DNA of 64,000 nt. It comes from Armatimonadota bacterium. GTDB lineage: Bacteria > Armatimonadota > Hebobacteria > CAIYQO01. The stretch covers positions 124,001-188,000 of the forward strand of contig JAKPKV010000028.1 in assembly GCA_029553475.1 (NCBI GenBank). The letters run 5' to 3'. The translations under genes and the position numbers were made by a program. Positions within the stretch are counted from its first letter, which is position 1, and each line of letters starts with the position of its first letter. The notes under the pieces are model-generated. The model was not told the origin of the DNA, ran no database searches, and saw nothing but the letters and a program-made list of their open reading frames with translations. Below, one piece after another: positions 3,599-57,707 of this stretch.

Positions 3599-3955
3599 GT
3601 ATCCCCCGGCGGGCGCGCAGGGACCGTAGGTCGTCATCATCGTCGTCATCGCCATCCGTCGCGCCGCGCGCGGAGGAACCGCGGCCGCCTCTCCACACCC
3701 TTCCCGCGCGTCACCTCACCCCTGTCCTACCAACCTTCGCGTCTTCCATTCTTCCTGACTTCGTGGTGAAGCCGCACCGCTCCGCCACCACACATCCCCA
3801 CCGGGGCACCCGGTCACCGGTCGGTGAAGAGGCCACGGTCTCTCCGCGCGCGGCGCGACGGATGACGACGATGACTATGATGACGATGATGACGACGACG
3901 ATGGCGATGATGATGACGACTTACGGTCCCTGCGCGCCCGCCAGGGGATTCGGAA
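3599..3955. repeat. Inverted pair of a dispersed element carrying (GAY)n triplets
   Basis: The 508-bp gap between thiO and the phosphodiesterase gene holds two inverted copies of one element. Copy 1 (about 3599-3675) contains GCGGGCGCGCAGGGACCGTA, GTCGTCATCATCGTCGTCAT and GTCGCGCCGCGCGCGGAG. Copy 2 (about 3839-3955) is its reverse complement, with the triplet tract expanded to 20 GAY-type codons (3861-3920). About 165 bp of unique sequence separates them. No credible gene is seen here. A degenerate relative with GAY triplets lies at 51420-51459. Confidence 0.75.
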
Positions 3956-7119: not shown

Positions 7120-8409
7120 ATGTCTACAGTTTCGCGGGGGGGCGCATTGGCGTTGACCGGCGGCAGCCCGGCGGTGACGCTCCCCGCGCCGGCCTGGCCA
7201 GCCGCCGGCGAGCAGGAAGTGGCCTGGATGACCGAGGTGGTGCGGAGCGGCAAGTGGAGCTGGGTGGGGCCGCACGAGCAGGCGTTCTGCGCGGAGTTCG
7301 CCCGCTTCATCGGCACCCGGCACGCCATGCTGCTGGCGAACGGCACGGTGACGCTGCAGTGCGCGCTGCAGGCGGTGGGCGTGCGGCCCGGCGACGAGGT
7401 GATCATCCCCGGCCTCACCTGGGTGGCGACGCTGCAGGCGGCGCTGGACATCGGCGCGAACGGCGTGCTGGTAGATATTGACCCGGAGACCTACTGTCTT
7501 GATCCGGCGGCGGTGGAAGCGGCCATCACCCCGCGGACGACGGCGATCATTCCCGTGCATCTCTACGGCTGCATGTGCGACATGGACGCCCTGCGGGAGA
7601 TCGCCCGCCGGCACGGGCTGAAGATCGTGGAGGACGTGGCGCACCAGCACGGCAGCCGCTGGCGCGACGTCGGCGCGGGCGCCCTCGGCGACGCGGGCAG
7701 CTTCAGCTTCCAGCAGAGCAAGGTGCTCACCTGCGGCGAGGGGGGCGCCATCACCTGCGATGACGACGCCGTCTACGAGACCGCCTTCTGCCTGAAACAC
7801 GTCGGCTTCCTGCCCGACGTGACCACGCCGGGCAACCGCTACGGGCACAACTATCGCGCCACCGAGATGCAGGCGGCACTGCTGCGCGGCGGGTTGACGC
7901 GCATCGAAGAGCAGTTGCGCATCCGCGAGGAGAGCGAAGCGCTCCTCCGCGAGGGCTTGCGGCGCATCGGCGGCCCGCTGCGCGCGGCGCGGCGCGACCC
8001 GCGCGTCACCCGGCAGTCGTACTACGCGGTGACGCTGCACTTCGACCCGGCGCAGGCGGCGGGCGTCACCCGCGAGCAGTACACGGCGGCGCTGGCGGCG
8101 GAGGGCCTGTACCTGATGGGCACCTATCCGGCCGTGTACAATCATCGCCTGCTCAACCTGTACGATGCCACCAGCCCGATCCCCTACCGCGATCCGGCGC
8201 GGGTGCAGCACTACGCGTCACTGCGCCTGCCCGTCACCGAGCGCGTGGTGAACGAAGAAGGGGTGGTGCTGTCGCACGTTCCGCTGCTCGGCGGCGCGCC
8301 GCTGATGGCGCAATACCTTGACGCGGTGGCGAAAGTCAACGATCATCTGGCGGAGGTGACGGCGCATTTCGCGGAGGCAGAGCGATGCAGATCGGCTTCG
8401 GCAAAGTAG
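7120..8409 (+). CDS. DegT/DnrJ/EryC1/StrS-family PLP aminotransferase
   Basis: The 429-residue product starts at ATG 7120 behind a strong GGAGG site. Fold-type I sugar aminotransferase landmarks are in order: LANGTVTLQCAL (phosphate-binding loop), PGDEVIIPGLTWVAT, PVHLYGCMCDM, VEDVAHQHGS (aspartate contacting PLP) and SFSFQQSKVLTCGEGGAI with the PLP lysine. The QQSK and GSPAV features resemble inosose and amino-sugar aminotransferases such as StsC, but the keto-sugar substrate cannot be read. It overlaps the next gene by 25 bp, implying translational coupling. No sugar-nucleotide dehydratase is adjacent. Confidence 0.9.
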   Translation: MSTVSRGGALALTGGSPAVTLPAPAWPAAGEQEVAWMTEVVRSGKWSWVGPHEQAFCAEFARFIGTRHAMLLANGTVTLQCALQAVGVRPGDEVIIPGLTWVATLQAALDIGANGVLVDIDPETYCLDPAAVEAAITPRTTAIIPVHLYGCMCDMDALREIARRHGLKIVEDVAHQHGSRWRDVGAGALGDAGSFSFQQSKVLTCGEGGAITCDDDAVYETAFCLKHVGFLPDVTTPGNRYGHNYRATEMQAALLRGGLTRIEEQLRIREESEALLREGLRRIGGPLRAARRDPRVTRQSYYAVTLHFDPAQAAGVTREQYTAALAAEGLYLMGTYPAVYNHRLLNLYDATSPIPYRDPARVQHYASLRLPVTERVVNEEGVVLSHVPLLGGAPLMAQYLDAVAKVNDHLAEVTAHFAEAERCRSASAK

Positions 8410-9722
8410 ACATCACCCCGCGCGTGGGCGTGGAGTTGTGCGGCTTCGGGCCGTTCATCAACCGCCACTCCATCGGGATACGCGACCGGCTGTGGGCGCG
8501 GGCGATGGCGGTGCGGCACGGCGGGACGACGCTGGCGCTGGTGAGCTGCGATCTCATCGCGGTGAGCGAGGGCATCACCCGGCGGACGCGGGAGCTGGTG
8601 CGCGCGGCGCGCGGCCTGCCGGACGACGCGGTGATGGTGCACTGCACGCACACGCACAGCGGCCCCTGTCCCAGCCCGCTCATCGGCTGGGGGGACGCCG
8701 ATCTGCCGTATTTGGAAGTCCTCCCCACCCGGCTGGCGCGGGCGTGCTGCGCGGCGATGGACCACCTCACCACGGCGGAGCTGCGGCACGCGACGGCGCC
8801 GTGCGAGGGCATCGGCCTGAACCGGGAGTATGACCGCGACGCCCCGCCGCTGGACAAGGTGCTGCGCGACGACTGGCGGCCGGCGAAACCGGAGCTGACC
8901 GATACCGCTTGCCACGTCATCACCGCCCATGCCGGCGACCGGCTGCTCGGCTTCCTCAGTTATTTCGGCTGCCATCCGGTCACCTGCTGCCAGCAGACGC
9001 GCTACCTCCACGGCGATTACTGCGGGGTGGCGACCAACCTGCTGGAGCGCGAGCACCCGGGCAGCGTGGGCCTCTTTCTGCAGGGCGCGCAGGGCGATGT
9101 GAACACTTGCGTGGTGCATCAGCCGGAGGGAGAATCGCTGCTGGCGCTAGACATCATCGCCGCGCGCTACGCCAATGCCGTGCGGGCGGGGATGCGCGCC
9201 GCGCGCCCGATTGCCGTGGACGGCATCGCCGCGCGGTCGCGCCGGGTGACCTTCACCCGCAAGCCGGTGGCGCGGGACGGCCTGCGGGCGATGCTGACGG
9301 AGAACGCGCAGGTGGTGCAGGCGGCGGACGCCGCGGATGACGACCACCGAGTGCGCATGGCCACCGTCTATCTCCACGCGCTGCGCCGCCTCCTCACCCG
9401 CCTGGACGCGGGGGAGACGCTGGCGCCGCCGGCCGAGCTGCAGGGATTTCGTATCGGCCCCCTCGCTCTCCTCGGCACCCCCTTCGAAATCTTCCAGGCG
9501 ATCAAAAACGACGTGGTCGCCGCGGCGCGGGCCCCGATTCCGCTGGTGATGGGGCTGACCAATGACGAGCTGGGCTACGCGCCCGACCGCGCCTGCGCCG
9601 CCCGCGGCGGCTACGCCGCCGAGCAGGTGCCCTACATGCTCGGCGCGCTGCCCTTCGCCGCGATCCATGATGAGCTGGCGGCGGCGCTGCTCTCGCTGGA
9701 TGGGGAATTGGCGGAGCGGTAG
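8385..9722 (+). CDS. Neutral/alkaline ceramidase-like protein
   Basis: A 445-residue protein beginning MQIGFGKVDITPRVG, typical of the N-terminal domain of neutral/alkaline non-lysosomal ceramidases and their many uncharacterised bacterial relatives. Putative zinc ligands occur in HCTHTHSGPCPS and FGCHPVTCCQ. FLQGAQGDVN corresponds to the conserved loop that carries the catalytic serine in true ceramidases. The protein is much shorter than Pseudomonas ceramidase and lacks its C-terminal domain and a signal peptide, so a cytoplasmic amide or ester hydrolase acting on a sugar derivative is as likely as ceramidase. It overlaps the aminotransferase gene, so the two probably act on one pathway. 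Confidence 0.8.
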   Translation: MQIGFGKVDITPRVGVELCGFGPFINRHSIGIRDRLWARAMAVRHGGTTLALVSCDLIAVSEGITRRTRELVRAARGLPDDAVMVHCTHTHSGPCPSPLIGWGDADLPYLEVLPTRLARACCAAMDHLTTAELRHATAPCEGIGLNREYDRDAPPLDKVLRDDWRPAKPELTDTACHVITAHAGDRLLGFLSYFGCHPVTCCQQTRYLHGDYCGVATNLLEREHPGSVGLFLQGAQGDVNTCVVHQPEGESLLALDIIAARYANAVRAGMRAARPIAVDGIAARSRRVTFTRKPVARDGLRAMLTENAQVVQAADAADDDHRVRMATVYLHALRRLLTRLDAGETLAPPAELQGFRIGPLALLGTPFEIFQAIKNDVVAAARAPIPLVMGLTNDELGYAPDRACAARGGYAAEQVPYMLGALPFAAIHDELAAALLSLDGELAER

Positions 9723-9728
9723 CTCGTG

Positions 9729-9925
9729 CGTGTAGCGGGTCGTCACGTTGAGCCTTGCTCTGTAGTCCGCGCCCTCCGCGGCGCGTGTGACCAACATGCG
9801 CAACGGTGTCCGACACCATCGTCATCGGGCACGATGTAGCAATGCGTCAACACGCGCCGCGGAGGGCGCGGACTACCCCGGGCTGGTTTGCTACACTATA
9901 GTACATCGTGACAACCCGCTACACG
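9729..9925. repeat. Inverted-repeat element with 19-bp termini, copy 1
   Basis: The element is bounded by CGTGTAGCGGGTCGTCACG (9729-9747) and its near-perfect reverse complement (9907-9925, 18 of 19). Inside, GTCCGCGCCCTCCGCGGCGC (from 9765) is inverted at 9851-9873 around a 70-bp core. A second copy at 57470-57665 has the same outer orientation but a reversed core. No coding capacity is seen. With the other units at 10030-10158 it fills most of the gap between 9723 and the exchanger promoter. Confidence 0.75.
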
Positions 9926-10029
9926 TGCGGAGTGCAACTCCGCGGCCCCGGTGTGTGCCTCCCGATTTATGCTCTTTGACAAATGACTTCCGCTTTGCTC
10001 GGTATCCGGTCCGTCGGCCCGCTCTGGCC

Positions 10030-17712: not shown

Positions 17713-18236
17713 ATGCGCCTCCTCACCGATGAAAATATCCCACGCATCATCGTCTCCCAACTTCGCGAATGCGGGCATGACGTGCTGGATATCCGCGAAG
17801 CAATGTCGGGCATCAGCGATGTGGCAATATTGCGGAAGGCTGAAGAACAGCAACGATTACTCCTCACCTTCGACCTGGACTTTGGCGAATTAGGGCGTGT
17901 TCACACTACCGGAAATCGCCAGCTTTTGCGGGGATTTTTCGCCAGACACGGCGGAAAAATGCCGCTGTAGTGGGGCCACAGCAAATTTTGATAACGCCGT
18001 ATGGCGGAAAATACGCCATAAAGATGCGCGTTGAGCGGTAGGGTGAACACGCCCTAGTCTTCAGGCACCAATATCACGTGCCGTATGGCCTCATTTTGTT
18101 TCGCATCAAATTGCTTGCTCCGGATCAGTTGGCTCACTTCGTTGTTGATGTAGTCGCAAGTCGTCGTGATTGGTGCCAGCACTATAGCGTTGTTGATGCA
18201 AACAGCATCCGCGTGATTGAACTTCCTTTGCGTTAA
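17713..18236 (+). pseudogene. DUF5615 PIN-like toxin gene interrupted by a MITE
   Basis: From ATG 17713 the product reads MRLLTDENIPRIIVSQLREC...LLLTFDLDFGEL, the N-terminal half of a DUF5615 PIN-like toxin with its conserved acidic residues. The family sequence then breaks into an unrelated tail ending at 17970 (85 residues). Deleting 17893-18056 rejoins the frame exactly (GAA TTA then GTC TTC) and continues HQYHVPYGLILFRIK...SVVDANSIRVIELPLR to a TAA at 18234-18236. This is the normal DUF5615 C-terminus and gives a 119-residue ancestor. The inserted 164 bp shift the frame, so the present gene should not make an intact toxin. Its ancestral stop interlocks with the stop of the convergent dehydrogenase gene. 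Confidence 0.88.
17891..18056. mobile_element. Miniature inverted-repeat transposable element (about 162 bp plus TA duplication)
   Basis: The terminal inverted repeats are TAGGGCGTGTTCACACTACC (from 17891) and, at 18036-18056, its reverse complement; 20 of 21 positions match. The element begins and ends in TA, consistent with duplication of a TA target as in IS630/Tc1-type transposition. It has no coding capacity, so it would need a transposase in trans. A small internal palindrome (CGCCGTATGGCG) is present. Insertion inactivated the DUF5615 gene. Confidence 0.88.
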
Positions 18237-20517: not shown

Positions 20518-20633
20518 CGTGGTATGAGTTCTACCCGCGAAGGAAGCATTCCTGTCGGCGAACGGACGACAATGCGCGGAAAGCGGGCGGGAGTTCGCCG
20601 AGCCGGATGCAGGCCGGGATAGTGATGGTCACG

Positions 20634-20724
20634 GTCTGGAACAGGGCGGGAGCCCGGCCGCTGTTAAGTGTAGCGGGTCGTCACGTTGTACCGTTAATGG
20701 CCGGGCTCTCGCCCTGTTCCAGAC
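20634..20724. repeat. Inverted-repeat element with GTAGCGGGTCGTCACGTTG in the loop
   Basis: Arms of 26 bp (20634-20659 and 20699-20724, one mismatch, beginning GTCTGGAACAGGGCG) enclose a 39-bp loop. The loop contains GTGTAGCGGGTCGTCACGTT, the same terminal motif as the elements at 9729 and 57218. Pairing continues imperfectly outward through GGTCAC/GTGAC. It fills the gap between the rhomboid-like and anti-sigma genes. Confidence 0.7.
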
Positions 20725-20725
20725 G

Positions 20726-20767
20726 GTGACTATGTCTACAGCCGAGTGCCTATTCGCGACTCGACGG
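20726..20767. repeat. Dispersed 42-bp repeat, copy 2
   Basis: GTGACTATGTCTACAGCCGA and the following bases match 11755-11796 at most positions. It abuts the inverted-repeat element at 20634-20724 and overlaps the last codons of the anti-sigma gene on the other strand. Confidence 0.55.
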
Positions 20768-57217: not shown

Positions 57218-57430
57218 GATGTAGCGGTACGTCACGTTGCACCTTGTCTCGTCCCTCGTAGGGAACGCCCGCCGTGGCGTTCCGGGGCGCACATTGGCAC
57301 ACCGGGTGGAGCTACGGGAACCGGAACGCCACGGCGGGCGTTCCCGACAATTAGGGGTGAGGGGTGAGGGATTAGGGATTGGGCGCGCGCTACAGGCGGT
57401 TATCCTGATACGCACACGACAACGTGACGC
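57218..57430. repeat. Composite inverted-repeat element
   Basis: GATGTAGCGGTACGTCACGT begins the unit; a relative of its end, GACAACGTGACG, is inverted at 57418-57429. Inside, a perfect 25-bp inverted repeat (57261-57285 with 57321-57345, GGGAACGCCCGCCGTGGCGT...) surrounds a 35-bp loop. Part of the 514-bp gene-free stretch after the lyase gene. Confidence 0.6.
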
Positions 57431-57469
57431 CCCCCTAACCCCTACCAACGGTCGGTTCGCAGAGCAATG

Positions 57470-57665
57470 ATGTTGCACCTTGCTCTGTAGTCCGCGCCCT
57501 CCGTGGCGCGTGGTGACGCATTGCTACCCCGTTTGCCAGCCGAAGCTTTAGCGAAGGCTGGTGCCCGATGACGGTGGTGTCGGACACAGGGGCGCATGTT
57601 GGTCACACGCGCCGCGGAGGGCGCGGACTACCCCGGCTGGTTTGCTACACAGAGTACATCATGAC
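57470..57665. repeat. Inverted-repeat element, copy 2 (core reversed relative to copy 1)
   Basis: The left side GCACCTTGCTCTGTAGTCCG and right side GGACTACCCCGGCTGGTTTG read in the same direction as at 9729-9925. The core between the GCGCCCTCCG arms is the reverse complement of that copy (ACGCATTGCTAC, CCCGATGACG, GTGTCGGACAC, GCGCATGTTGGTCACACG). It also carries a 30-35 bp insert with its own hairpin (CCAGCCGAAGC/GCGAAGGCTGG). Confidence 0.75.
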
Positions 57666-57707
57666 GGCCCACGACAACGAGGAACCAGGAGTGCAACGCC
57701 GCCTGCC

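Follow-up and report, generated by a model that had tools for sequence, protein, structure and literature searches.

A REPIN with its core in either orientation within a MITE-like composite repeat of an Armatimonadota bacterium

The window (the whole 64,000-nucleotide stretch of DNA analysed here) contains two copies of a composite repeat (Table 1). The composite is bounded by terminal inverted repeats (TGTAGCGGGTCGTCACG..), inside which lie two flanks, each either of type S or of one of two longer, one-sided types (P and Q), then two inverted arms (GTAGTCCGCGCCCTCCGCGGCGCG) and, innermost, a core. The arm (GTAGTCCGCGCC-CTCCGC-GGCGCG) has a GTAG head and a GC-rich palindromic stem, and each arm is itself a palindrome, with two 6-bp halves and a 6-bp spacer between them. 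Copy 1 is a complete composite of 193 bp, with the 6-bp target duplication CGTGCG at both ends. Copy 2, located between orfs that are likely real (location was scored for these two window copies), is a truncated relative, in which the left terminal repeat appears to have been replaced by a fragment of the neighbouring composite. An earlier note on this DNA had recognised both copies; the 6-bp duplications correct its limits for copy 1 to 9731-9923, and the right repeat of copy 2 extends beyond the end proposed there, to ~57676.

Table 1 Features of the two window copies and of the composite next to copy 2.
Feature	Position	Strand	Remark
Left 6-bp target duplication CGTGCG	9725..9730	.	exact duplicate
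Copy 1, complete MITE-like composite, terminal inverted repeats TGTAGCGGGTCGTCACG..	9731..9923	+	
Copy 1 S flank and left terminal repeat	9731..9761	+	
Copy 1 REPIN unit (REP doublet), core orientation F	9762..9876	+	
Copy 1 left REP arm, GTAG head, 27 nt	9762..9788	+	
Copy 1 right REP arm, inverted	9850..9876	-	
Copy 1 P flank and right terminal repeat	9877..9923	+	
Right 6-bp target duplication CGTGCG	9924..9929	.	exact duplicate
Neighbour composite with second-family REPIN (GTAGGGAACGCC arms 57258, 57323-57348)	57220..57465	+	outer limits by eye
Copy 2 REPIN unit, core orientation R	57487..57631	+	
Copy 2 extra small core hairpin, within 30-bp insertion	57536..57561	+	
Copy 2 P flank and degenerate right terminal repeat	57632..57676	+	right end ~57676

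Aligned in the same direction, copies 1 and 2 match at 9747-9787/57472-57512 (93%) and 9850-9881/57605-57636 (100%), while the core together with one arm is matched in reverse only, at 9762-9832/57561-57631 (71 nt, 94%) and 9831-9876/57487-57532 (46 nt, 91%). These direct and reverse-only alignments confirm what the earlier note had claimed, a core that is reverse-complemented between unchanged outer flanks. The extra small hairpin that it had seen in the core of copy 2 is also present (57536-57561) and is part of the 30 bp by which the REPIN unit of copy 2 (145 bp) exceeds that of copy 1 (115 bp). The arms are complementary over 27 nt in copy 1 (100%) and 26 nt in copy 2 (96%), and single-strand folding gave z scores of -10.9 and -9.0, respectively, equalled by 0/200 shuffles in each case. 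An Rfam scan of the window placed tRNA alone above threshold. No promoter-like match was found inside copy 1 or copy 2, the two window elements scanned, and copy 1 starts 8 bp beyond the stop codon of the orf at 8385-9722, so that a position near promoters, as suggested earlier, is not borne out.

REPs and REPINs are repeats found widely among bacteria. Judged by its sequence features, the studied element is a REPIN/BIME-type REP doublet inside a MITE-like composite. GTAG-tagged REPs, REPIN/BIME doublets and RAYT transposases are described in excerpts of PMC3116915, PMC3733652 and PMC2817692, and likeness to the REPINs and BIMEs of these excerpts extends to the GTAG head, the GC-rich palindromic stem, the inverted doublet hairpin, a less conserved spacer, high copy number and the presence of REP-flanked RAYT genes in the same genome. 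However, the units studied here lie within a MITE-like composite and their spacer is found pointing either way within one and the same frame. Like MITEs, the composite is short, contains no orf itself and has terminal inverted repeats and 6-bp target duplications of fixed length, but what it encloses is a REPIN belonging to either of two families. The observation is a true one: the element, a REPIN enclosed in a MITE-like shell, is of a known kind, and its cores are reversed against a fixed frame, a feature for which no description was found; the titles, abstract beginnings and passages of the literature searched contain no report of reversed REPIN cores.

Across the genome, the arm has 121 matches with up to 2 mismatches (10 for a control) and the outer repeat has 135 with up to 3 mismatches (0 for a control), of which 100 of 121 and 100 of 135 places were listed; the loci fetched contain at least 43 distinct arm pairs. 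An exact 6-bp target duplication flanks 14 of 45 composites, compared with a mean of 0.39 and a maximum of 4 in permutations, and no clear transposase orf for a parental element was seen by eye in one 730-bp pair examined. The P flank was located at 17 places; at 16 it adjoins the studied core, and the 17th is a three-mismatch match without arms, so an empty S-P frame was not seen. G001, the sole same-genus genome among the relatives searched, carries the REPIN in loci without frames, and G002 carries the outer repeat without the studied core.

Core orientation (F or R) was read relative to the asymmetric one-sided flanks P and Q. Genome-wide scoring gave a mixture: S-P frames alone include 5 F and 9 R copies (n = 14), so the copies do not all have one fixed orientation, and S-Q frames include 7 F and 1 R (n = 8). 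Two more P copies read F, namely L005, in which one arm is mostly deleted (core F against P; outside the 43 pairs), and L016, which has lost its S side. Core class follows frame class in 15/15 P and 7/8 Q copies (22/23 together), the exception being L007, a Q copy with a P-class core, whereas orientation follows neither. In a 23-copy tree, the orientation label needs 8 changes, and 361 of 500 shuffles needed as few or fewer; the label is no more clustered than shuffled labels, and with only well supported branches considered 2 orientation changes are forced. Core and frame distances within S-P are not correlated (Mantel test on sets without L016, r = -0.008, n = 14). Arms belonging to one element are more alike than permuted arms, with 19 mismatches compared with 23.8 (P = 0.0125, n = 41; 41 of the 43 pairs, L012 and L114 being dropped for inserts in their arms). 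In L012 and L114 a hairpin of ~22-23 bp (..CCCGATGG.ATCGTGGG..) is inserted in the loop of one arm, adding one more layer of nesting.

The same outer repeat also houses REPINs of a second family, whose arms (GTAGGGAACGCC..) are unrelated to those above. In the a/b frames of this family, short cores are F in 6 copies and R in 2, and long cores are F in 1 and R in 3; these counts were made by eye, leave out symmetric a-a and b-b frames and single-flank copies, and include two F copies (L095 and L127) that are near-identical and not independent. The composite next to copy 2 (57220-57465) belongs to this family and is among the short-core R copies in its own a/b frame. The segment 57220-57676 has the look of two fused composites, with this second-family neighbour abutting copy 2 in the place of its left terminal repeat, and the neighbour is itself split by a repeat with TTAGGGG-like ends, further copies of which are present in the genome (L014, L133, L264). 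Within one and the same kind of derived frame, both core orientations occur, and this holds for two REPIN families and across dispersed copies rather than at one locus.

Three RAYT genes in the genome exceed the NCBIfam cut-off (REP_Tyr_transpos), and a RAYT gene passing this cut-off sits between two second-family REPINs. The RAYT gene at C4:17216 is flanked by two REPINs of a third family whose cores are mutually reversed, and the RAYT genes at C90:1171 and C159:6817 have direct REPIN pairs. One RAYT-flanking REPIN set has the GTAGT head and CGCGCC/GGCGCG stem of the studied arms, with a different loop and reversed cores. The exact studied REP was found beside the gene at 0 of 12 Y1_Tnp loci, with one 2-mismatch match 1.5 kb away (L042). 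Long perfect palindromic flanks of differing families accompany the G000 RAYT genes L219 (C4:17216), L224 (C90:1171) and L216 (C176:120879), with palindromic units whose arms reach 30-39 nt in the best cases.

At C2:112300-114430 the studied REPIN lies upstream of each of three tandem paralogous genes, and the REPINs at C2:113616 and C2:114308 are identical at 65/68 positions in reverse and 37/74 forward, with matching left flanks. Orthologous hairpins with undisturbed flanks have the same orientation in the sister species in 4/4 cases, one of them weak and two short: C2:114308 (score 41 vs 7.5), two short C73 hairpins with a truncated arm (25 vs 10.5 and 40 vs 21), and C90:42028, which is weakly decided (28 vs 18.5; identities 53/110 and 60/113). 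Because these orthologues keep their orientation, flipping need not be fast, although it would have happened repeatedly as the family evolved. The pair C2:112904/C50:4428 shows opposite orientation (score 76 vs 3) adjacent to a gene deletion, and was set aside as a clean orthologous inversion because the deletion alongside makes it unsafe; as G000 retains a leftover right-arm piece beyond the neighbouring gene and this gene is absent in G001, the core in G001 may derive from a different copy. An apparent ‘empty site’ in G001 for the C2:113616 REPIN was also rejected, as a right-arm remnant there indicates deletion and not an empty target. Between L143 (G001:C50) and L045 (G000:C2:112904), a 587-bp tract from the REPIN arm is 97% identical in surroundings of 83-86%, as if a REPIN-bounded gene unit had been transferred between the two species.

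The explanation favoured here, which we hold with modest confidence, is that a REPIN in a MITE-like composite spread as a unit and that the core was later inverted in place between its own arms. The target duplications and common one-sided flanks suggest that the composite, with the REPIN inside, spreads as one unit; in individual copies the core would afterwards have been inverted in place between the two arms, the likeliest routes being a template switch while the hairpin is replicated or recombination of the arms through short homology. That families with unrelated arms behave alike points to the inverted-repeat structure itself and argues against one site-specific invertase; of the two origins put forward in the earlier note, events between the arms stand as the best explanation and the invertase does not. 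Template switching between inverted repeats inverts the spacer and evens out the arms, according to excerpts of PMC8604942, and the likeness of arms within elements (P = 0.0125) represents a weak evening-out, as that mechanism predicts. Recurrent flipping of chloroplast loops flanked by hairpins is described in part of PMC2903610. The extracts of these two sources, on chloroplast small inversions and yeast spacer inversion, share with the present case a spacer found recurrently in both orientations between near-perfect arms, but here the copies are those of a dispersed bacterial repeat and not one locus, and the spacer is 60-97 bp compared with 25-27 and 2-5 bp. The uncorrelated core and frame distances within S-P count against a strictly in-place reading, and the favoured explanation is further weakened by the four orthologous hairpins that keep their orientation, by the unsafe state of the one opposite pair and by the mere 2 changes that well supported branches force. 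The flip looks like a by-product of hairpin anatomy, not a regulated switch.

The same lack of correlation within S-P leaves core exchange between copies as a main rival. In ectopic gene conversion, the inverted-repeat arms would let a donor pair either way with a recipient copy, so that its core takes the place of the recipient's own in one direction or the other. The P-class core of L007 in a Q copy is in keeping with such exchange, as is the 30-bp extra hairpin of some copies, which has a constant site and direction within the core and is found in both core classes, and the 587-bp tract beginning at a REPIN arm suggests that arms can bound exchanges. However, free exchange should mix classes, and 22 of the 23 P and Q copies keep core class with frame class; gene conversion is considered rather unlikely. 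Separate insertions of REPINs, facing either way, into frames that already existed would fit the occurrence of the modules apart from each other in G001 and G002, which indicates that the composite was put together at some time. No S-P frame lacks the studied core among the 17 places with a P flank, though, and P and Q are each added on one side only, next to the same arm, suggesting that they arose once the REPIN was already in place, and independent insertion therefore appears very unlikely.

As the other main rival, a RAYT (REP tyrosine transposase) might cut at the two inverted REPs and rejoin the hairpin reversed, or excise and reinsert it. An excerpt of PMC8266576 states that TnpA-REP of E. 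coli cuts single-stranded REPs and joins them again in vitro, and the genome has REPIN-flanked RAYT genes, one with a set resembling the studied arms and having reversed cores. Nevertheless, the gene has no exact copy of the studied REP beside it in any of the 12 Y1_Tnp loci, and inversion activity is not described in the excerpts of the cited RAYT literature, making RAYT action distinctly unlikely. It is equally doubtful that the REPINs are reversible modules here, with core orientation in a fixed frame as the footprint of RAYT cleavage and rejoining; if true, this would offer a countable readout for REPIN movement.

In fim- and Hin-like phase switches, a segment between inverted repeats occurs both ways, and the studied core resembles them in being an inverted-repeat-bounded segment found in both orientations. 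Sites of tyrosine recombinases consist of two halves around a spacer, a palindromic layout similar to that of the arm with its 6-bp halves and 6-bp spacer, and the genome has five resolvase-family matches. Even so, flipping of the core by a site-specific invertase as a phase switch, a role proposed in the earlier note, is extremely improbable: in contrast to fim- and Hin-like systems, there are many copies and several unrelated arm sequences sharing mixed orientation, neither window element has a promoter-like match, and no recombinase of the resolvase family, the sole family searched, lies at any of the arm places listed. The same orientation in 4/4 orthologous hairpins with undisturbed flanks also speaks against a phase switch.

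Dissemination of REPs and REPINs is called poorly understood in an excerpt of PMC8266576. The asymmetric outer frame records the direction of the inner hairpin, which allows flips to be tallied across many copies together. Alignments of REPINs should permit a reversed spacer, as seeming divergence may be orientation. A gene-switch role would matter more, and nothing found supports such a role.

Further nested inverted repeats are present in the window at 3601-3949 and 17891-18056 (56- and 64-nt arms, 84-89%, and 50-nt arms, 70%), and at 20620-20738 a hairpin with 40-nt arms (88%) lies beside a perfect outer terminal repeat, GTGTAGCGGGTCGTCACGTTG, at 20668-20688.
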